Of a stretch of 64,000 nt of DNA, positions 11,007-64,000 are shown one piece after another. The translations under genes were made by a program, and so were the position numbers. The notes beneath the pieces were generated by a model. The model had not been told where the DNA came from and searched no databases. It saw nothing but the letters and a program-made list of their open reading frames with translations. Origin of the DNA: a virus; IMG/VR virus record IMGVR_UViG_3300040856_003829, positions 32,161 through 96,160 of that record. The stretch is one strand, 5' to 3'. Numbering within the stretch: the stretch's first letter is position 1; every line of letters begins with the position of its first letter.

Positions 11007-11508
11007 ATATACTATTGAAAGACTTTGTATAATTATTCCAAATAGACTCTACCTCATCATAAATTATATTCGAGAATATTGTGGGTTCTTTAGGTTTGTT
11101 AAGTAACTTCAAACCTGCTTCTTTGAGTGTCTTATTTCCTTTATATGTGTTACATCTGGAACAACACGTCACCATATTAACCCAGGTATTTTCACCCCCC
11201 TTAGATCTAGGAATTACATGGTCTATTGTTAGATTCTTCTTAGTTCCACAATATTGACATGTATTTTTATCTCTCTTGAATATTCTTCTACGATTCACCC
11301 TTAGACCTTCTCTTCTGAATCTTATATAGTTTAGTAACCTTATAATCACTGGTCTCACAAAATTACCCACTGATGTTACTATATCATTTTCCCCTTTTTT
11401 TACTACCTCAGCTTTACCTTTATCTACAAGTACAAAACCTCTGTGTAATGACGTAATGTTTAATGGTGAAAAATCTGCATTTAATACTAATACTAAATTA
11501 TTTCTCAT
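11005..11508 (-). CDS. HNH endonuclease
   Basis: 167 residues with a clear HNH core: zinc knuckle CQYC (84-87), then IDHVIPRSKGGENTWVN (Asp96-His97 and Asn111) and the second cysteine pair CSRC (116-119). The N-terminal half (VLVLNADFSPLNI) matches the free-standing HNH proteins common in bacteria and phages. Such enzymes cut DNA; in phages they act in packaging or as homing nucleases. It is far from the terminase, so a homing or host-DNA role is as likely. An ATATTTAT element is 15 bases upstream and a GGGG tract precedes the ATG, one of few Shine-Dalgarno-like leaders here. Confidence 0.85.
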   Translation of the reverse strand: MRNNLVLVLNADFSPLNITSLHRGFVLVDKGKAEVVKKGENDIVTSVGNFVRPVIIRLLNYIRFRREGLRVNRRRIFKRDKNTCQYCGTKKNLTIDHVIPRSKGGENTWVNMVTCCSRCNTYKGNKTLKEAGLKLLNKPKEPTIFSNIIYDEVESIWNNYTKSFNSI

Positions 11509-11523
11509 AATCCCCTTTTTTAA

Positions 11524-11531
11524 ATAAATAT
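11524..11531 (-). promoter_or_regulatory. ATATTTAT element before the HNH gene
   Basis: Exact match on the minus strand, 15 bases from the ATG, beside the tmRNA terminator. Confidence 0.4.
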
Positions 11532-11549
11532 TTTTTTAAACTATAAAAA

Positions 11550-11579
11550 AAAAGATCGACTTTTTCAAGTCGATCTTTT
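11550..11579 (-). terminator. Terminator of the tmRNA gene
   Basis: A 13-bp stem, AAAAGATCGACTT / AAGTCGATCTTTT, with a TTTC loop (plus-strand reading), beginning two bases after the tmRNA 3' end on the minus strand and followed there by a T-run. Confidence 0.85.
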
Positions 11580-11580
11580 G

Positions 11581-11966
11581 TGGAGATGCTGGGCCTCGAA
11601 CCCAGGTCCTGATTGTCCCAAACAGAAAGGACTACACGTTTAGGTCATTATTGATTCTCAACAATCCGAAATAGGTGATTGAATTTTTACATCCTCCGTC
11701 ACCAATAGATGTATGACTCAATTTAGGGTTTAGTCATTTCTCCACCACAACAACGGACTTCTGTTCATAGGTACATGTCCTGACCGACCCGCTGGATACG
11801 TCGCCTTAGGCTGCGTATACCTCTTCAGTACGGATCAAACCGAGAGTCTGAAGTTTTGCGAAAGTTTCGCCATTTGTGTTTTGAAACCGTGGATTAAAGT
11901 GATAGGTAACCTCTCACTACGTGCCCTTTGTGACTGATGACACCAGTCAAATCCATAATCATCCCC
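11581..11966 (-). ncRNA. ssrA: tmRNA (trans-translation RNA)
   Basis: The minus strand reads GGGGATGATTATGGATTTGA at the 5' end and closes with GGGTTCGAGGCCCAGCATCTCCA-type tRNA-like sequence. Bases 1-7 (GGGGAUG) pair with CAUCUCC exactly as in E. coli tmRNA, including the G-U at position 3; the T arm is CTGGG/CCCAG around TTCGAGG. CCA is not encoded beyond the discriminator A. The tag frame starts with GGC at 11871 and stops with TAA at 11808-11806: 21 codons, GETFAK...EEVYAA. Bacterial tmRNA rescues stalled ribosomes and tags the peptide for proteolysis. The long tag and its VYAA end are unusual. Length about 386 nt. It lies beside ClpC-like and peptidase genes. Confidence 0.93.
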
Positions 11967-11998
11967 ATATGTAAAGAACTTATTGATAAGTATCTTTC

Positions 11999-13042
11999 TT
12001 ATTCTTCATAATCAACAAACCGTTCCTCGATCAAATCCAAAAGTCGATCGATATCATTCGGTGACAGAGTTACTCCATCACCAGTAAGTTCATTTTCGAT
12101 CACCAGATTGTTACCCATATAATACATGTCCACCTCATATTCGTCAAGTTCATCATCAGAATTGTCTTCTTCATTGTTCTGGAACAAATCGAAGAAAGAG
12201 CTAGACATTGGGTTACGATACTCAAAATCATATTTCACATATCCCAATCGGTTAACAATCTCTTTTGCCATATAAAATGCATTCTCTACGTCTTCCAATA
12301 CAACAAACTCTTGGACAGAATGCATATTATAGTAACCACATGAGAGGTTGATGCAAGAAAAGTCTCCTTTTCTTTTGATTTGTGACACATCCGTGTAAGG
12401 ATGGGACTGAAGCATGGGATCAGTTTTCATGTACTTTGTAAAAACTGGGATAATTTTATTAATAAATTCACCATCCCGATCAAACAATCTAACACCTGAA
12501 CAAACTTCCGTAATAAGGTGATTTCCGGGAGCATCAAACTGAATCGCATATCCTACATCTTTGAGAAACTCTTCATCACATTGCTGAGAACCGTGACAAC
12601 CAGTTTCCTCTGATACGAATAAACCGATCTTTACTTTCGGAAGTTCCATCAGGAGTTCGAGACACAAAAAGATCCCACACTTGTCATCTCCACCAATACC
12701 TGTTGGAAGTCCGCCCGTAGTGTATGCCTTATATGACGCATACGTCTGATTACCAAATGACTTACCAAAGGTAGTTGGTTTCGAAAGAAATTCATCTTTG
12801 ACAACGATTTCTTTCTGAATATCGTGAACTGTATCTGTATGTGCGATGAACATTGGGTAGTATTCACCTTGATCCAGAACACCTTTCGTGACATAGATAT
12901 TTCCCATATGATCAGTTTCAAAATTGACATTTGGGATCTTAGTCAAAAAGTTAACAACATAATCGATCATCATTTCCTCCCTATAAGTTTTGGTTGGGAC
13001 ACTCAAGAGGTTTTTAAAACGATTTGCCTTTTCGATATTCAT
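11999..13042 (-). CDS. M20-type metallopeptidase (peptidase T-like)
   Basis: 347 residues with the dinuclear zinc peptidase signature: AHTDTVH (His68, Asp70), GIGGDDKCGI (bridging Asp around 119), SEETGCHGS (catalytic and ligand Glu145-146), DAPG and a late NMHSVQE histidine. The family removes N-terminal residues from short peptides in the cytosol. The lid domain between the catalytic halves is short, so the protein is smaller than typical peptidase T (about 400). The C-terminal 60 residues are acidic and lack a match. Its position between tmRNA and a ClpC-like unfoldase suggests it clears peptides from proteolysis; that link is inference. Confidence 0.8.
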   Translation of the reverse strand: MNIEKANRFKNLLSVPTKTYREEMMIDYVVNFLTKIPNVNFETDHMGNIYVTKGVLDQGEYYPMFIAHTDTVHDIQKEIVVKDEFLSKPTTFGKSFGNQTYASYKAYTTGGLPTGIGGDDKCGIFLCLELLMELPKVKIGLFVSEETGCHGSQQCDEEFLKDVGYAIQFDAPGNHLITEVCSGVRLFDRDGEFINKIIPVFTKYMKTDPMLQSHPYTDVSQIKRKGDFSCINLSCGYYNMHSVQEFVVLEDVENAFYMAKEIVNRLGYVKYDFEYRNPMSSSFFDLFQNNEEDNSDDELDEYEVDMYYMGNNLVIENELTGDGVTLSPNDIDRLLDLIEERFVDYEE

Positions 13043-13070
13043 AGTTAATTATTTCTACAAATATAGAACA

Positions 13071-13104
13071 AAAAGTCCAAGTAAACAAACTTACTTGGAC
13101 TTTT
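13071..13104 (-). terminator. Hairpin terminator after the ClpC-like gene
   Basis: A 14-bp stem, AAAAGTCCAAGTAA / TTACTTGGACTTTT, loop ACAAAC, followed on the minus strand by further A/T-rich sequence. The stem overlaps the last codons and TAA stop of the ClpC-like gene. Confidence 0.75.
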
Positions 13105-15106
13105 TTATAAATAACTTTTCTTCTTTGTCTATATCAAGTAGATATTTTAAATTCTCTTTGATATTACCTCTAAGGACTTCTTCAGATATTAAATCTTCAA
13201 TCTTTTCTTGAATTGCTCTTTTAATAGGTCTAGCCCCGAACTTCTCATCAAAACCTATTTTTTGTATGTATGATTTAACTTCATCTGAGACCTCAACGTT
13301 GTAGTTCAAAGAATCCAATCTTTCATTCAACTTATATAATTCAATAGATACAATCCTATTAACTTCATTTTCTTTCAGTTGGTTAAATATAATAATTTCA
13401 TCTACCCTATTCAAAAACTCAGGTGTAAAGTAATTTTTAAGTTCTTTTCTTAACAAAGATTTCTTAATTTCTTCGTTATTACTCATTCTGTTTTTTGTAT
13501 CAAAACCAACACCTACTCCAAAATCTTGTAATTTCTTCACACCTAAATTAGAAGTCATAATAATCAAACAATTCTTGAAATTAATCTTACGACCAAAACT
13601 ATCAGTCAAATGACCATCATCAAGTAATTGTAATAGTAGTGAAAAGATGTCCTTATTTGCTTTTTCAATCTCGTCAAATAATACAACAGAATATGGTTTA
13701 TTCTTTACCGCCTCAGTTAACTGACCTCCATCATTGTGACCAACATATCCTGGAGGAGATCCGATCAATCTACTCATTGAGTGTTTTTCTTGATATTCAG
13801 ACATATCAACTCTTATAAGACAATCTTCAGATCCAAAAATCTCTTTAGCCAATTGTTTCGCCAAATAAGTTTTACCAATACCAGTAGAACCTAAGAATAT
13901 AAATGAACCTATTGGTCTATTAGGGTCTTTGATACCAATTCTATTTCTCCTAATCGCCTTAGAAATCTTTTCAACAGCCTGTTCTTGACCAATAACCTTA
14001 TTATTAAGATTTTCTTCCAAATTCAACAAACCTTTTTTGTCATCAGCGGTAAGTTTCGAAATTGGTATTTTAGTCATGTTAGATACAACATCATAAACCA
14101 TCTCTTCAGTAATTGGTTTTCTAGTTGTATTTTTTTCCTCTTCGAATTCTTTCTTTTCTTGTTCGAGTTTACGTAATATTTTACGTTCTTTATCTCTTAA
14201 TTCAGCAGCTTCTTCATACTTCTGACTTTTGACAACTTCAATTTTTTGTTTTTTAATCTCTTTGGAATCGAGTTTAAGTTTCTCTATACTTTCAGGATAT
14301 TTGACATTTATCTGTGCTCTTGCACCGACTTCATCTAATATATCAATAGCCTTATCTGGAAATTCTCTATCAGTTATGTATCTGTCCGCCAAAGAAACAC
14401 AAGCTTGAATAGACTCATCAGTATAAATAACTTTGTGGTGGTACTCATATTTGTCCTTCAAATTATTCAAAATCTCTAAAGTTTCTTCAGGAGTTGATCC
14501 ATCAACCATAATCTTTTGAAATCTTCTTTCTAATGCACCATCCTTTTCGATATTTTCACGATACTCATCCAAAGTTGTCGCACCGATACACTGCAATTCA
14601 CCTCTAGCTAATGCAGGTTTGAATATATTTGATGCATCCAAAGAACCAGAAGTATTACCAGCACCTATGATGGTGTGAATCTCATCAATAAAAATTATAA
14701 TATCATCAGCATTTTGTAATTCTTCTAAAATTACTTTTAATCTTTCCTCAAATTGACCCCTGTATTTTGTACCAGCAACAATAGAAGTCATATCAAGAGA
14801 TAATATTCTTTTTTCTGTTAGACTCTGAGGACACTCACCATTAAGTATTTTCATCGCTAAACCTTCAACAATCGCAGTCTTACCGCATCCTGGTTCACCA
14901 ATTATAATTGGATTATTCTTTTTACGTCTCGAGAGTACTTGAGCAATTCTTGTAATTTCTCTATCTCTACCAATTACGGGATCTAATTTTCCTTCTTCAG
15001 CTAACTTAATTAAGTCCCGTGAAAAGTTATCTAAAACTGGTGTATTCGAATTAGTATTACTACTTTCTTTTTCACTTTTTTCATTTGGGTCAATCGACTC
15101 TATCAT
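13091..15106 (-). CDS. ClpC-like AAA+ protein unfoldase without N-domain
   Basis: 671 residues with two AAA+ modules: Walker A GEPGCGKT (70-77) and Walker B IIIFIDE (to 142) in D1; Walker A GSTGIGKT (about 406) and Walker B VVLFDE in D2. Between them is a short UVR-like coiled segment ([15 protein letters not shown]) that marks ClpC rather than ClpB, which has a long M domain. A VGF tripeptide (about residue 531) sits where ClpA/C/X carry the ClpP-binding loop. The double Clp_N domain is missing: the protein begins with a 25-residue Ser/Asn/Glu linker. It could therefore pair with host ClpP but would not use normal N-domain adaptors. No clpP gene is visible in the window. Confidence 0.9.
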
Positions 15107-54406: not shown

Positions 54407-56398
54407 ATGCCTAGTCAAAATATTAATAATTATGGTGCAAATAAATTTGATTTGCGTATTGATTACAGTAATTATTATGACATTACAATCGGTAATGATG
54501 AAAATGATTTTGATCAAGAAGTAGTTTTCGGAGGTAACATAATAGGATATGATGACGGTGATAGATTACCAATTAATATTGACTTAAATTCTTTTGCATG
54601 TTCTAATAAATCAGATATCCTTTGGAATGATAATCAATTGATACCTTACATATCTAGAAGTTATTTGAAAAAAGATAAGTCTGATGATTGTTATTCTGCT
54701 CAGACACTTTGTGATTTAGGTTTAACAGCCACAGATAATGGATTAGTAAATAAAGTTACTGGTGAAACTTTAACTTTCACTATGGGTGTTGATGAATCAA
54801 TTGAGATCTCACCTCTTCATTACACTAGAAAGTTTAAAATGAATAATGTTAGATCATTTGCAAACTACCCAAACTCTAGATTTAGTGGAAATACTAATAC
54901 TATCTATAATTTAGTGTCAAAAAACGCAGATAAAATCGGCTATTATAATGAATTATACGGAGGATTTTTCCAGGGATTTTATAAATTGTTCGGATATGAT
55001 TATGAAGTATTTCCTGAAAGGGTAAAAAAGGGTTGGACAATGGAGACCGTTTTGAAACCTAGACAAAGGCAAGAGTTCGATCTTCAAAAGGACGAATATT
55101 ATTTGAATGATCTTTATACCGAAAATTCTGGTACCTTTTTCTATATGGGGACTAGAAGTGAAAATAAATTCTATCATACATCTAGTGGTATGACAACATC
55201 CGGATCAACTTTTGATTGTGATAGAAACGAAATAATTTTTAGTGACGGGTTAACAGGTTTTTCGAAAGATACTAGATTCTTGAATGATGATTATGTGACT
55301 TGTGCCTGTTCAGACACAGGAGTAACTAATAGTGAATGTATTAGAATTTACCCGAATTCGGGTGACTCTAAAACTTTATCAAACACATATGATCCGGGTA
55401 TGGATGTTTATTCAAATGGATTATCAGTAAGATTCGAGGGTGACCCAATAAACCCTAAAGTATGTGTGAAATACTTAACAATCACAGGATCATGTGTTAA
55501 TGATGGGAATTGTGAAGATGATATAAACTATAGTTCAGGTTATTGTATTAATGAAATTTGTTCAGTTTCAGGAATATATGATAATTGTAATCTTATAAAG
55601 AATGAATGTAATCAGGCCAATACTGAAGAAAAATGGGTTATGATGAGTATCGTTTTTGAAAGAAAGGATTATATTGAAAATTGTGATCTATTAAATTTTG
55701 GCGGTCTAGGTAGTATTCGAAGACGTCTATATCAATCTGAAATTGAGGATAAGTACACAAACTTGATAAAACCCCCTCATACTGGTACTGGGGATACTGA
55801 GGAACATTCCAGAATAGTGACTTCAATGAATACTAAATGGTTGAGAGAAAAAGAAGAGAGAATAGGAAGTCTCAAGGTTTACGTTAATGGATATCATTTA
55901 ATGACCATTGAAGATTTCGAAGAGATTATACCAAGAGAATTAAAAACAGAAAAAGAAAAACAAATTGGGGTACCGTTTAACATATCATGGGGTGGTGGAA
56001 CACAAGGACTAAGAGAAAATATAATTCCGTTTAACACTGAGACGGTGAACGGTCCTTACATCCAAGATAAATTGTGTATGACAAATAACACACTTTCAGG
56101 AACTTCATACTCTTCAGTGACTACAAATATTTTAGCTGAGTCAACTTTTGGAGGATCATTCATGGGTGCCATATCTCAATTCAGAATGTATACTGAACCT
56201 CTGACCGCACCACAAATTCAACATAATTTTAGAGTTTTAAAAGATCGTTATGATTTATATGATTTCTGGTGTCTAGAATGTTTAGAATGTTTGACTGATT
56301 GTTTCTTCGATTATGAAACTTCCCAAGATATTTATGATTTCGATTTTGTAATAAACAAAGCATCATGTGTATTTGATGTTGAAATATATAATTTATAA
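54407..56398 (+). CDS. Tail/fibre protein with LamG-like fold
   Basis: 663 residues. Aromatic/Gly N-terminal part (YYNELYGGFFQGFYKLFGYD) is a type often seen in T4-like tail proteins. Residues about 200-620 look like a concanavalin/LamG sandwich: GWTMETVLKPR, EEKWVMMSIVFERKDYIEN, LKVYVNGYHLM, and FGGSFMGAISQFRMY as the final strands. Thirteen or more cysteines are present, many in the middle. LamG folds bind glycans. It starts a plus-strand appendage operon, with a CTATTTAT element 12 bases before the ATG. Confidence 0.65.
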   Translation: MPSQNINNYGANKFDLRIDYSNYYDITIGNDENDFDQEVVFGGNIIGYDDGDRLPINIDLNSFACSNKSDILWNDNQLIPYISRSYLKKDKSDDCYSAQTLCDLGLTATDNGLVNKVTGETLTFTMGVDESIEISPLHYTRKFKMNNVRSFANYPNSRFSGNTNTIYNLVSKNADKIGYYNELYGGFFQGFYKLFGYDYEVFPERVKKGWTMETVLKPRQRQEFDLQKDEYYLNDLYTENSGTFFYMGTRSENKFYHTSSGMTTSGSTFDCDRNEIIFSDGLTGFSKDTRFLNDDYVTCACSDTGVTNSECIRIYPNSGDSKTLSNTYDPGMDVYSNGLSVRFEGDPINPKVCVKYLTITGSCVNDGNCEDDINYSSGYCINEICSVSGIYDNCNLIKNECNQANTEEKWVMMSIVFERKDYIENCDLLNFGGLGSIRRRLYQSEIEDKYTNLIKPPHTGTGDTEEHSRIVTSMNTKWLREKEERIGSLKVYVNGYHLMTIEDFEEIIPRELKTEKEKQIGVPFNISWGGGTQGLRENIIPFNTETVNGPYIQDKLCMTNNTLSGTSYSSVTTNILAESTFGGSFMGAISQFRMYTEPLTAPQIQHNFRVLKDRYDLYDFWCLECLECLTDCFFDYETSQDIYDFDFVINKASCVFDVEIYNL

Positions 56399-56401
56399 AA
56401 A

Positions 56402-56890
56402 ATGGCAAATTTAAAAATTTCTGAATTACCTGAAACACTTTCTGCGGATACGACAGATGTATTTGCAATAGTAAATAATAGTCAAACTAAAAAAATAACA
56501 TTCGAAAACTTATATGAAGATATTCCAACATTAAATTCTGAAAGACAATCTAATACTTTTTTAGTACCTACTGTTGTAACTGGTAGTTCAGGTAGTAACC
56601 ATTATATAAGTGGAATGAGTGAAACCGCACTTATACGTTTAGCATTTACTGGCGGTAATGGTACTGCAAATTTATTTTTACCAGACGCAACAACTAACAC
56701 AAATAGATGTATTAGAATTATTGGTGATGGCACTATAGATAATCAACATACTTTCGATGTTACACCTTCATTTGGTCAGAATTTAGATGGTTCTACAGGT
56801 TCATACAATATAGGCACAAATAAATCTTACGATGGTGTTATGGTTTGGACTGACGGTATTGAATGGTTCAGAATACAAAGTAAAGGATAA
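56402..56890 (+). CDS. Small tail-fibre-type protein
   Basis: 162 residues. Starts MANLKISELPETLSADTTDV and FAIVNNSQTKKITFENL, a very common N-terminal segment of phage tail fibres and appendages. The rest is beta-rich (TANLFLPDATTNTNRCIRII, HTFDVTPSFGQNLDGSTGSY) and could be a fibre tip. It follows the LamG-like gene after 3 bases. Confidence 0.6.
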   Translation: MANLKISELPETLSADTTDVFAIVNNSQTKKITFENLYEDIPTLNSERQSNTFLVPTVVTGSSGSNHYISGMSETALIRLAFTGGNGTANLFLPDATTNTNRCIRIIGDGTIDNQHTFDVTPSFGQNLDGSTGSYNIGTNKSYDGVMVWTDGIEWFRIQSKG

Positions 56891-56910: not shown

Positions 56911-59900
56911 GTGGAATTTTACATAAAAAAAGGAAGTACATTACCAATTCTAAGTTATGAAGTTACCGAAGACGGCATCAATAATTTAGATGCATTATTA
57001 AATGAACAAAATTATGTATGTAAATTTTCTCTTTTAAAAAAAGATGGTACTTTCGTAATTTTTCAAAAGCCAGCCCAGGTTGAGATGAGAAAAGACGGAA
57101 TTAAGGACGGTCTTTTTTTAACTTATAAGTTTAATAAAAAAGAAACTTCAGTTAGTGGTGATTATTATGGACAATTTCATTTGTATAGTATCGATGGTGA
57201 AAGGTTTTTCAAAAGAGAGGGTAAAATACCTATATTTATTTTAGACTCAATCTCTGATAATGATTTATGTTGTAAAGGAGATAAAACTAATTACGACACT
57301 ATTATAGTCTCAGAAACACCAAGAAGAACTCCAACAGGTACACCTTCAATAACATCAACACCAGCACAAACAGTAACACCTTCAGTCACTAACACACCAA
57401 ATATGACTTATTCATTTGGTGTTATTACTAGAGTTTGTGATGATGTAAGTTTTAATGTTATAGCACCTCAACTATATTTAATTAACGGTAATTATATGTC
57501 ATTTTATGGTGACTGTTATTTAATCTCAGATGTAGGTGTAATTGCAACCTATGATTTTATTATTACAGCATCAGAAATAGATCTTTATGATGAAGAATCA
57601 AACTGTACATCATTATATCCGTGTATTACACCCACACCATCACCAACAAATACTCAAACACCTTCAATAACTGCTTCAAATACACCAACACCTTCAATAA
57701 CTGCAACTCATACTCTAACACCTTCAATAACTGCAACTAATACTCAAACACCGACCAACACCACCACCACAACTTTAACCGCAACACAAACATCGACACC
57801 ATCTACTACCACAACTTTAACTGCAACACAAACACAAACGATTACGCAAACACCAACAAATACTCAAACACCTACATTTACTTTAACTCATTCACAGACC
57901 GCAACAAATACACCAACAAATACTCAAACGCCTTCAATAACCGCAACAAATACACCAACACCAACTCCATCATATACTGTAGGGGGAACCCCACTTCCAA
58001 CACCTACATTAACTTTAACCAATACGGAAACTCCAACATTTACACCTACTAATTCTGAAACTCCGACCCATACACCAACAAACACACTAACACACACACC
58101 AACATATACCCCTACAAATACAGTAACTAATTCTGAAACACCAACGTTTACACCAACTGGGACAATTAATGAAACCCCAACACTAACACCAACACAATCA
58201 GAAACACCGACAAATACTAGTACAAATACACCCACCAACACTCAAACTTCAACGTACACACCTAGCCCAACAATCACATCTACAGTAACACCAACACAAT
58301 CATCAACACCACCAGATACTGACTACGTATATGCATTCGTCTTAGCACATGATGATATTTTAGATGCTACTTTTAATGACAATAGTACTGAAAGACTTAA
58401 CGACAATACTGAAATCGATGTGTTTAGAATTTCTAGAGATTCTAGAACTTATATACCAACAAATGATTCAAAAAATTCTGCAGAAATAGATCTAGATTTA
58501 AGTAATTTTAATAGAATAAAAGATTCAAGTTTTAACCGTATAGTAATTGAATTACCAAAACTTGGTGATGAGTATGGCACATATCAAAAGGTATCTATTG
58601 AGCCCGTAGATATATTACCAGACAATATTCCATTTTCTATTGGTAATAACAACAGTATTATTAATAATTTCTACACCAAAAAGTATATACAATCTTATAA
58701 CATATATAACTCATCAAGTGAAAGACTAGGTATATTTGTCGCGTTCGGTGATAAACTTTTTGCCCAATATAGAGATGGTGATCAATCAATAGAGTTGATA
58801 AAAAGACCAGATATTAATTATGATGATAAATATATATTACAAAACACACTTGACTTAAAAAATCCTGGGGAGTTTACTTGCGGGGCACCGGAATCGACAG
58901 AAGAAAATATTGTAAATAGTATTCAAGAATCTGCAAGATCCTCAACACCAGAAAACGGATATTGTATAAGAACATGTATTGATGTTGATTACGCAACATA
59001 TAATTATTTTAATGGTAATGAAGAAGAAATTCTTATTTGGGTATCATCAATTTGTGTGGGTGCAATTTCAATATATCTAGACACATGGGATGGATTAGTA
59101 AACTGGCAGATTTCCTTAATTCACCTTTGGGATACGCAGGATCCTATCATGATAGAACCTGGACCTGTAGAAGGTAATACTTTCTTAAATAGAACCAGAA
59201 ATGCGTGGAATGATATCGATACATTATCTCAATTATATCTAGAATATGATTTACATATTGTTTATACCTTTACTATTTTAAGTCAAAATTTACAAGGACC
59301 ATTTGGACCTAACTCTTCAGGGTTACTAGGTTCTGCATATCCTGATATGGTTTGTAAAGATAATGTACCATTTATAACCGCAAATGTTGGTATATCATAC
59401 CAGTTATGGCCTGAGGGTGTAAGTGAACAAAACACTCTTACTTTAGCACATGAATGGGGACATTTAATCGGATTTAATCATACCCAGAGTTCTCAATTCG
59501 GTAGAGGATGGGTAGAGTTTAAAGATCTTACGGGTGCACCAGACCCAATAGAAAGTTCTAGTTACGGTTGTTACCCTCCAGGTACTTGTGATAGTACGTG
59601 TGGTGATATTATGAGTTACTGTTTTACTGGTAGGTTACTAGAATTCCACCCAGTCCTAGTTGAGTTTTTGCCGTTCCATATGGATTTTATAAATGCAAAG
59701 TGTTTATTGACCGACACTATTTGTACCGTACCACCCACAACTGAACAACTTAATTCACTGTCCTATTATATGGGTGACCTTCAATTTACCTTCCATATTA
59801 ACTATTACTCTACTAGCCTTAACAAATTAACCAAATACCTCGATTGGCCAGGGTTTTTATTAGGTACACAGAGAGGATCACAATTAATACAAATCCCAGT

Positions 59901-60603
59901 AAATGATGATGGTACGTTTGGTACTTTTAATATTCCAGGTTCAACATTAAGTTACGGTGAATTTACAGTTATTATAGTAACAAAATCCATGGGATATAAT
60001 GATTCAACTATTATGGGTAATATTGAAATAAATTATGACAATGGATCTACTTACTATTCATACGAAACTTTGGATGTATTTTACGGATATCATATAGATT
60101 ATAATGGATTTAGTATTGACAATACTAATAATTATAGGGTTCTTTTCTCCCCTTCTATGATTTTTAATAATAGTAATCCAACAATAACATATAAAATAAG
60201 GGGTGGTAATATGATTGAGTATGACCAATCAGTAGGATCGGATAATTCCCCCAACTATTTTGGTATATGTCTTTACAATGAAGAAAATGTTGTTGCAATT
60301 ACGGGATCAAATGTTGAAGATACCACCAGACCTAGTTTTAATCGTAGTCTTAATAAATCTTATATAATATATTTACCCGGAGATACTTATGTTGGTAATC
60401 TCTTTGACTATCCTGTTTTAGTTCCAGACGTACCCGAAAACTGGTTTTGTGTAAATTTGTGGGAAGGATCGATTTCCATCGAAACTTTAACCGTTTGGAA
60501 TAGTGACGTATTGTACACTTGGTACGCTGATAATTGTAATGATAGTTTATGTGGATTAGATCCTACAATAGGTTTACCTCCTTTAACACCGATAAACATT
60601 TAA
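56911..60603 (+). CDS. Tail appendage protein with Thr/Pro stalk and metzincin domain
   Basis: 1230 residues, GTG start, confirmed by a paralogous N-terminus ([14 protein letters not shown]; compare the next gene). Domains: 1-120 attachment module; about 240-469 a Thr/Pro repeat stalk; about 470-690 beta-rich; about 690-930 a metallopeptidase of the reprolysin-like type; then a beta-rich end. The active site is [11 protein letters not shown] (847-857, HExxHxxGxxH) and the Met-turn is DIMSY (Met901). This gives a complete zinc site. A virion-bound protease could cut surface proteins or S-layer during adsorption; the substrate is unknown. Distinct from the next gene, which lacks this domain within the window. 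Confidence 0.8.
57640..58318 (+). repeat. Thr/Pro-rich repeat stalk
   Basis: About 230 residues built from TPT, TNT, TQTPSIT and TETPT-like steps, with high Thr and Pro content. Codons vary at third positions, so the DNA is less repetitive than the protein. Confidence 0.85.
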
Positions 60604-60614
60604 AAAAACGATGT

Positions 60615-63600
60615 ATGGATTTTTATATTAGAAAAAATAGTACATTACCAGTTTTAAAGATGGAGATCCCTGATCTACCATCTTTTGATCTTAATAGTGC
60701 TTCTTCTTTTTTTAATCTAAAATTTAAATCCCAAGACAAATACAAAATATTTAATAAACCCGCAAATATTTTTTTTTCTGATGGATTGTATTATGTTGAA
60801 TTTAAATTCAATAAGAAGGAAACAAATTTTTCCGGGTCATTTGAAGGTGAATTTATTCTCAAACAAGGGGAAAACAAAATAAAAATTCCTACGGATGATG
60901 ACATCACTGTTGAGATCACAGATTCGTTTAGTAATGTGGATGCCTGTTGTAAACCACAAGAAGTTACGATAAGCGTAGTTCCAGGTATAACCCCTAAAAG
61001 AATAATTGTCACTGATACACCAAAAAGAACACCAACAAAAACTCCAAAAATAACTAATACACCAACAAATACAAAAACAAGTACAAATACACCAACATTC
61101 ACTCCAACTAATACCTTGACTCCAACTCATACTTCGACTAACACAAATACCCCAACAAATACCCCAACATTTAGACCTACTAAAACACCTACTAACACAA
61201 TAACTTCAAACGAAACCCCTACTTTAACTCCGACTAATACAAATACACCCACATTTACCCCAACTAACACTATTACCAAGACAGTGACAAATACAATAAC
61301 TAATACAATCACTAGTACTGAAACACCGACATTTACACCAACTAATACTACTACAAATACTGAAACACCCACATTTACACCAACTAATACTGTCACAAAT
61401 ACTGAGACTCCAACATTTACCCCAACTAATACTATTACAAATACCGTAACTAATACTGTTACGAGAACTGAAACACCAACATTTACACCAACTAATACAG
61501 TAACAAGTACAGAAACGCCAACATATACTCCAACTAATACGATCACAAATACAGTTACAAGAACTGAAACTCCAACATTTACTTCAACAAATACTTCTAC
61601 AAATACTGAAACTCCTACATTCACTCCAACTAATACTGCCACAAATACTGAAACCCCTACATTCACTCCAACTAATACAGTAACTAATACTGAAACACCA
61701 ACATTTACCCCAACTAATACGATCACAAATACTGTAACAAGTACTGAAACGCCAACATATACACCGACTAATACGATTACAAGTACAGAAACACCAACAT
61801 TCACTCCAACTAATACAATAACGAAAACTGAAACACCTACGTTTACTCCAACAAAGACTATCACACAGACCCCTGGTGGATCCCCAGCAGCCACTCCAAC
61901 ATTTACCCCAACTAATACTATTACAAGTACTGAGACTCCAACATTTACTCCGACTAATACAATTACAAGTACTGAGACTCCAACATTTACCCCAACTAAT
62001 ACTATTACCAATACTGTTACCAGTACAGAAACTCCAACATTTACTCCAACTAATACTATTACCAATACTGAAACACCAACATTTACTCCAACTAATACTC
62101 CAACTAATACTATTACAAATACTGAAACTCCAACATATACTCCGACTAATACGATTACAAGTACTGAGACACCTACATTTACACCAACAAATACTATTAC
62201 CAGTACCGAAACACCAACATTCACTCCAACTAATACTATTACGAGAACTGAAACTCCAACATTCACACCAACTAATACGATCACAAATAGTGTTACCAGT
62301 ACAGAAACACCAACATATACACCGACTAATACTATTACCAATACTGAAACACCAACATTTACCCCAACAAATACTGTCACCAGTACTGAAACACCAACAT
62401 TTACTCCAACTAATACTATTACACAAACACCTGGTGGATCCCCAGCCGTTACTCCAACATTTACTCCGACTAATACGATTACAAGTACTGAGACTCCAAC
62501 ATTTACTCCAACAAATACGATCACAAATACTGTTACTAGTACTGAAACACCTACATTTACCCCAACTAATACTATTACCAGTACAGAAACGCCAACATAT
62601 ACACCAACGTTTACTCCGACTAATACTGTTACCAATACTGTTACCAGCACTGAAACGCCAACATATACTCCAACAAATACCCCAACTAATACTATAACTA
62701 AAACAGTCACTAGTACTGAAACACCTACATTTACTCCAACTAACACCTTGACACCATCCCCCACAATGCCTGACGGAGACTTTATATTACAAGAAAATAG
62801 TTTTGCCATTTTACAAGAAGACAACGATTTATTAATTATCGATTATCCTCCTACCCCAACCCCAACCCCTACTTTGTCTGAAACCCCAACTTTAACTCCA
62901 ACAAATACTATAACGAAAACTGAAACACCTACGTTTACTCCAACTAATACAATTACTAATACTGTTACGAATACTGAAACTCCGACATTTACTCCGACTA
63001 ATACTATTACCAATACAATTACCAGTACGGAAACTCCAACATTTACCCCAACAAATACGGTTACTAGTTCTGAAACTCCAACATTTACGCCAACTAATAC
63101 GATCACAAATACTAAAACTCCTACATATACACCGACCAATACTGTAACCAGTACTGAAACTCCAACATTTACACCAACTAACACTGTCACAAACACTGAA
63201 ACACCCACATTTACACCAACTAATACAGTGACAAGTACTGAAACACCTACGTTTACTCCTACTAATACAATTACAAATACTATTACCAATACTGAAACAC
63301 CAACATTCACTCCAACTAATACTATTACCAATACTGTTACCAGCACTGAAACACCAACATTTACTCCAACTAACACAATAACTAATACTGAAACGCCTAC
63401 GTTTACTCCAACTAACACAATAACTAATACTGTTACCAATACTGAAACTCCAACATTTACACCAACTAATACTATTACCAGAACTGAGACACCTACGTTT
63501 ACACCAACTAACACAATAACTAACACAATAACTAATACAGAAACACCAACATTTACCCCAACTAATACAATAACGAATTCTGAAACGCCAACATTTACAC

Positions 63601-64000
63601 CAACAAATACGATCACAAACACTGTTACGAATACTGAAACTCCGACATTTACCCCAACTAATACTGTTACCAGTACAGAAACGCCAACATTCACTCCAAC
63701 TAATACAATAACGAATTCTGAAACGCCAACGTTTACTCCAACTAACACAATAACTAATACAGAAACACCAACATTCACTCCAACAAATACGATCACAAAT
63801 ACTGTTACCAGTACAGAAACTCCTACGTTTACTCCAACTAACACTGTTACGAGAACTGAAACACCAACATTCACTCCAACAAATACGATCACTAGTACTG
63901 TAACCAGTACAGAAACTCCTACGTTTACTCCAACTAATACTATTACCAGTACAGAAACGCCAACATATACACCAACGTTTACTCCGACTAATACTGTTAC
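60615..64000 (+). CDS. Giant Thr/Pro-repeat appendage protein (3' truncated by window)
   Basis: Open from ATG at 60615 to the window end (more than 1128 codons). The N-terminus ([14 protein letters not shown] onward, FNKKET, GSFEGEF, DACCK) is paralogous to residues 1-120 of the upstream gene. From about residue 135 to the end it is almost wholly Thr-rich repeats of the type [13 protein letters not shown](N/S) with an optional four-residue TVTS step, i.e. 14 or 18 residues. It is interrupted at about 718-745 by a short unique part ([20 protein letters not shown]), similar to small beta segments of tail fibres, and by two GGSP spacers. No stop codon in frame is seen. Probably a long flexible virion stalk. 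Confidence 0.8.
61030..64000 (+). repeat. Long tandem Thr/Pro minisatellite
   Basis: Dozens of 42- and 54-base units encoding [15 protein letters not shown], divergent at synonymous positions. Higher-order copies around 61870 and 62430 carry a CCTGGTGGATCCCCAGC spacer (PGGSP). The opposite strand is also open for long spans, which is a by-product of the repeat. Confidence 0.9.

Follow-up and report, generated by a model that had tools for sequence, protein, structure and literature searches.

The known enzymatic tips of phage tails mostly degrade glycans; an enzyme-tipped tail appendage is a known kind of structure, and a metzincin-bearing one is a rare variant of it. Animals and gut bacteria deploy zinc proteases of the metzincin type against surface proteins. 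In TP901-1, BppU-N domains link the parts that bind the receptor to the Dit ring, and the same fold occurs in T5 p132 and 80alpha (PMC7291167). Zincins have been proposed to act in virion maturation in jumbo phages (PMC7824862), and a phage-derived metzincin paired with a TIMP-like protein has been described in Listeria (PMC8235301). The latter shares a phage origin with the protein studied here but is secreted, accompanied by a lipoprotein inhibitor and encoded on a bacterial chromosome, and is not a tail appendage. No report of a baseplate-anchored metzincin was found in the open-access literature searched.

The window, i.e., the whole 64,000-nucleotide stretch analyzed here, comprises bases 32161 to 96160 of a 96,160-base IMG/VR virus record, which is a fragment, making the gene inventory of the adsorption apparatus partial. 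The terminase, portal, and major head protein of the window phage match tailed-phage PHROGs. Its terminase shares <30% identity with known terminases, the nearest of which include those of uncultured jumbo phages and of Flavobacterium phage immuto. In our best explanation, the virus is a large T4-like phage and its 1,230-aa protein encoded near the window end is probably a baseplate-anchored tail appendage displaying a latent metzincin that would cut host surface proteins, a reading built on sequence comparison and predicted structures. The features of the locus are as follows:

54407-56398, plus strand: 663-aa protein upstream of the metzincin gene
56402-56890, plus strand: 162-aa protein with a "KISELP" N terminus, between the 663-aa and metzincin genes
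56911-60603, plus strand: metzincin-bearing putative appendage protein, 1,230 aa, GTG start
56911-57300, plus strand: predicted N-terminal anchor module with a BppU-N-like fold, residues 1-130
57310-57399, plus strand: first short Thr/Pro stretch, residues 134-163, from sequence
57400-57624, plus strand: small domain between the stalk stretches, residues 164-238, from sequence
57625-58329, plus strand: main Thr/Pro-rich stalk, residues 239-473, from sequence
58342-58890, plus strand: predicted metzincin prodomain, residues ~478-660, ending FTCGAPE, with Cys657 at 58879-58881
58957-59685, plus strand: predicted metzincin catalytic domain, residues ~683-925
59449-59481, plus strand: zinc-binding helix motif HExxHxxGxxH, residues 847-857
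59605-59619, plus strand: Met-turn DIMSY, with Met901
59728-60600, plus strand: C-terminal region, residues 940-1230
60615-64000, plus strand: paralogue with the same N-terminal module and a Thr/Pro-rich stalk, true start at 60615, truncated at the record end

The N-terminal module was modeled with AlphaFold (AF2) from 21 aligned members (pLDDT 79). In Foldseek searches, the best PDB match of this model was the baseplate of phage NF5 (TM 0.58 to 0.62), the 80alpha baseplate was also found, and several proteins named BppU domain were among the matches in BFVD. We therefore predict, by fold, that residues 1 to 130 form a BppU-N-type baseplate anchor, the sequences of the 21 members giving no match to the BppU Pfam families at E values up to 1. 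As with the BppU-N domains of the TP901-1 baseplate upper protein, T5 p132, and 80alpha, the module would be an N-terminal anchor for distal parts; whereas in the known cases the domain carries the receptor-binding proteins of siphophages, the module here is followed by a Thr/Pro stalk and a protease in a T4-like phage, and the structural similarity stays at a TM of about 0.6. Relatives of the anchor module were found at at least 163 loci in viral contigs; among the 80 fetched, most encode the module alone, as a protein of about 125 aa. In isolate phage records, tblastn retrieved none. This ~125-aa anchor gene (in L008, L081, L010, L016, and others) often precedes a conserved ~930-aa gene whose product starts with M(I/F)xxEEIESFLHGNDPEEFIVA.

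The first-pass annotation, made from the sequence alone, had linked the protein to an appendage paralogue and a Thr/Pro stalk, and both are borne out. The next gene encodes the same N-terminal module (37% identity) followed by >950 residues of Thr/Pro-rich stalk, and all contigs of the clade break off within the Thr/Pro repeat of this paralogue. In the metzincin protein itself, the stalk spans about residues 134 to 473, interrupted by the small domain at ~164 to 238. A match to phrog_15511 was rejected as a functional clue, as it covers the Thr/Pro tract only and recurs on unrelated stalk proteins. Neither the small domain nor the C terminus had homologues outside the clade among the top matches from the fetched loci, and receptor binding could in fact reside in the C-terminal module.

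The complete metzincin zinc site announced by the first-pass annotation is present, with HExxHxxGxxH at residues 847 to 857 and the Met901 of DIMSY 44 residues past the third His. Across all six frames of the window, the zinc motif is found a single time, and it appears in none of 200 second-order Markov simulations of the window. The full protein passes the curated cutoff of Pfam Reprolysin_5 (M12) narrowly (27.1 bits against 27); substretches reach 29 to 31 bits (30.6 for residues 478 to 945), and the 88%-identical homologue on an independent contig (G003) passes clearly at 36 bits. A fold lacking the metzincin helix and the Met-turn placement would have contradicted this assignment, and the point was checked in part with an AlphaFold model of residues 478 to 945, built without zinc and of moderate confidence (mean pLDDT 60.5, pTM 0.70, no residue above 90), which retrieves metzincins. 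In Foldseek, the ADAM17 zymogen came first (E 1.2e-10), followed by profragilysin-3 (E 5e-10); the catalytic part matched snake-venom adamalysins (TMt about 0.79), and the top matches listed were metzincins, with E values of 1e-10 to 1e-6 and TMt up to 0.80. Altogether, these data confirm that the window protein holds a predicted metzincin-fold domain with a complete active-site motif.

The domain resembles the Reprolysin_5-type, M12B-like metzincins of Bacteroidota in its HExGHxxGxxHT motif, its Met-turn, and its prodomain with a terminal F-x-C, but the phage-contig members of this type mostly have signal-peptide-like starts, where the window protein has an anchor and a stalk, and identity is 15 to 25%. 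ADAM/adamalysin zymogens and profragilysin are the best structural matches to the prodomain and catalytic domain together, yet the third zinc His is followed by Thr (HExxHxxGxxHT) and not by Asp as in M12B adamalysins and ADAMs proper, so the enzyme falls outside the adamalysins as strictly defined; moreover, it is phage encoded and without disintegrin or transmembrane parts. A PDB sequence search with the window protein gave only insignificant MMP-9 and acutolysin matches. When 84,980 genomes were scanned by peptide pattern, no close cellular relative of this particular domain was confirmed, and HEWGHxxGFNH had no exact match there; other HEWGH matches in viral contigs were small, mostly different zincins.

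Between the stalk and the catalytic domain, residues ~478 to 660 aligned by hhalign with the propeptides of eight viral-contig metzincins (E 1.2e-5, probability 81%, 129 columns), in which the equivalent region follows the N terminus. The F and the C of the F-x-C closing the propeptide are invariant in 8/8 relatives, and in the window protein the segment ends in FTCGAPE, similar to PRCGVPD, the cysteine-switch motif found in matrix metalloproteases. In fragilysin, the switch residue is Asp and not Cys. Since the prodomain is homologous to those propeptides and the best structural matches are zymogens, a latent enzyme is likely, and its closure via a cysteine switch at Cys657 is a good hypothesis from alignment and modeling.

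The metzincin ORF is intact in three other contigs, two at 100% identity (L001 and L002) and one at 88% (L003). Comparison with the 88%-identical homologue gives a dN/dS of 0.24 for the whole gene, 0.21 for the prodomain, and 0.28 for the catalytic region, and on this sequence measure the gene is under purifying selection. Identity is 95% in the prodomain, 92% in the C terminus, and 85% in the catalytic domain, whose faster divergence could reflect either adaptation to a substrate or a relaxation of constraint. The prodomain being the most conserved segment would suit an adhesin, in which the metzincin fold grips a host protein, catalytically idle and with its prodomain retained, and in a related phage the same slot is filled by a module that serves for binding, a lectin (L008, below). 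We nevertheless hold this explanation to be unlikely, as the zinc ligands, the catalytic Glu, and the Met-turn (aligned with the IMSY of relatives) are all kept in both divergent homologues and in the relatives of alignment A5, and a pure binder would not need them. This idle adhesin and self-processing of the phage by the protease are the main rivals of a displayed, catalytic metzincin.

The strongest argument for the latter as the distal part of an appendage comes from synteny. Two related loci (L008 and L081) share with the window, in conserved order, the adjoining minus-strand gene block and the 663-aa gene, the homologues of which are 50 to 52% identical and directly precede N-module proteins; in the window, the anchor-module gene comes after the 162-aa gene instead. 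At the syntenic position, L008 encodes an anchor, a long Thr/Pro stalk, and a Laminin_G_3 domain (ConA-like lectin), and L081 encodes two bare anchors. Because this position holds a lectin in one phage and bare anchors in the other, the protease appears to be a swappable payload at the distal end of the appendage. The same comparison bears on the possibility that the protease acts on the phage itself, by trimming or releasing Thr/Pro appendages or by processing virion proteins at assembly or after adsorption. The metzincin gene does adjoin a giant Thr/Pro paralogue, a zymogen-like organization would suit such a role, and the virion maturation proposed for jumbo phage zincins (PMC7824862) offers a precedent; however, phages that share this anchor-and-stalk system in synteny carry a lectin or no payload, so that the system does not require the protease in order to assemble, and a terminal position on a stalk suits display better than assembly. 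We consider self-processing improbable.

We propose the following model for a baseplate-anchored, displayed metzincin. The BppU-like N-terminal domain would fix the protein to the baseplate and the long Thr/Pro stalk would extend the appendage outward, the outer part being a latent metzincin, in which the prodomain precedes a reprolysin-type catalytic domain, and then the C-terminal module, with the protease as one of several interchangeable payloads at the locus. We infer that the protein is present in the virion and catalytic; upon cell contact, the prodomain would be displaced or cleaved, and the protease would then most likely cut host surface proteins, which could help the virion toward its receptor or the outer membrane. 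The BppU-N fold, the metzincin prodomain, and the payload swap at the locus all go beyond the first-pass annotation. It is very improbable that the protein is no part of the virion and, in the course of infection, is exported to the host or acts in it. Two M43 metalloproteases whose N termini resemble signal peptides are encoded on the same record, as are T9SS-sorted proteins, so that the phage does seem to use secreted enzymes. The window protein, however, has no hydrophobic signal peptide at its N terminus (many related phage-contig metzincins have one), its anchor fold is a baseplate fold, and its gene sits among other appendage-like genes with Thr/Pro stalks in a cluster that shows synteny; the secreted-protease reading was dropped on account of the missing signal sequence and the anchor fold.

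What a displayed metzincin would cut depends on the host. T9SS is confined to Bacteroidota and close relatives. Outside the window, one protein of the same record carries a T9SS type A sorting domain above the cutoff, and a second one carries a type B domain below it. As T9SS-sorted cargo is encoded in the record, the phage host most likely belongs to Bacteroidota. S-layers are not typical of Bacteroidota, and the earlier proposal that the enzyme digests proteinaceous surface layers is thus not supported as stated: given the host indicated by the T9SS cargo, proteins of the outer membrane or of the gliding surface are more likely targets than a classical S-layer.

The first-pass annotation had also called phage tail proteases of this kind uncommon, which holds for isolates, with no tblastn match to any metzincin query tried among 50,697 phage records, but not for uncultured phages, where related metzincins recur in secreted and virion-like forms; plasmids gave no match to the metzincin queries. 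A scan of IMG/VR for HExGHxxGxxHT yielded at least 112 distinct ORFs, many with signal-peptide-like starts, and one related phage-contig metzincin has a T9SS-type tail just below the cutoff. In at least two further phage lineages, the metzincins look virion borne. In the first (L221/L211/L232), the metzincin lies inside a >2.7-kaa protein that PHROG comparison places with virion structural proteins (E 3e-49 and 9e-26), and the C-terminal part of the giant protein matches structural proteins of Flavobacterium FpV4 phages. These PHROGs (phrog_37948 and phrog_15100, of crAss-like and Flavobacterium FpV4-type phages) are linked to the window through the metzincin contained in L221/L232 proteins of this kind, which groups with that of the window, but the proteins are giant and without a BppU-like anchor or Thr/Pro stalk, and the FpV4 relatives match the C-terminal part only. 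In a tree of 34 metzincin domains, the window domain grouped with L211/L232, but the support of 92/81 falls slightly short of the star threshold and there are long branches close by, so that this kinship is suggestive only. In the second lineage (L103/L174/L227, contigs of 173 to 215 kb), the domain order is inverted relative to the window protein, and L227:4173-13008 holds three consecutive prodomain-metzincin-Thr/Pro-stalk genes (592, 672, and 2,305 aa).

More generally, and tentatively, Bacteroidota phages may repeatedly arm their virions with latent adamalysin-like proteases, either as exchangeable tips borne by Thr/Pro stalks that are anchored to the baseplate or within structural proteins, which a cysteine switch would keep shut until host contact and which would then clear surface proteins; we regard this wider idea as possible but doubtful. 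If true, it would be the proteolytic counterpart of tailspike polysaccharide depolymerases. As a modular protease tip, a probably latent metzincin displayed on a baseplate anchor would open a route through protein-rich surfaces, e.g., outer-membrane protein coats or gliding adhesins, and would supply a concrete reason, on the side of the phage, why host surface proteins vary. With homologous loci carrying a lectin, a protease, or nothing, the role of the payload is testable across natural variants.

Several other genes of the record were noted. In its first 14 kb (record G000, 1-14 kb), L097:758-4138 and 11451-13970 encode large secreted proteins with CTDPxAxNYxxxANxDDGSC repeats and the T9SS type A and B domains, and a full-length DnaK is encoded between these two T9SS-sorted protein genes. 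The two M43-type metalloproteases (Pfam Peptidase_M43, E about 1e-17) are encoded in tandem at L096:11513-15756 (bases ~25.5 to 29.8 kb of record G000, outside the window); besides their signal-peptide-like starts, they show dockerin-like repeats and sorting-tail-like C termini. Contig G002 holds one M43 gene as well as the window metzincin. Within the window, the phage genome encodes a tmRNA at 11578-11966 on the minus strand (Rfam, 99 bits), for which ARAGORN gives the tag GETFAKLQTLGLIRTEEVYAA.
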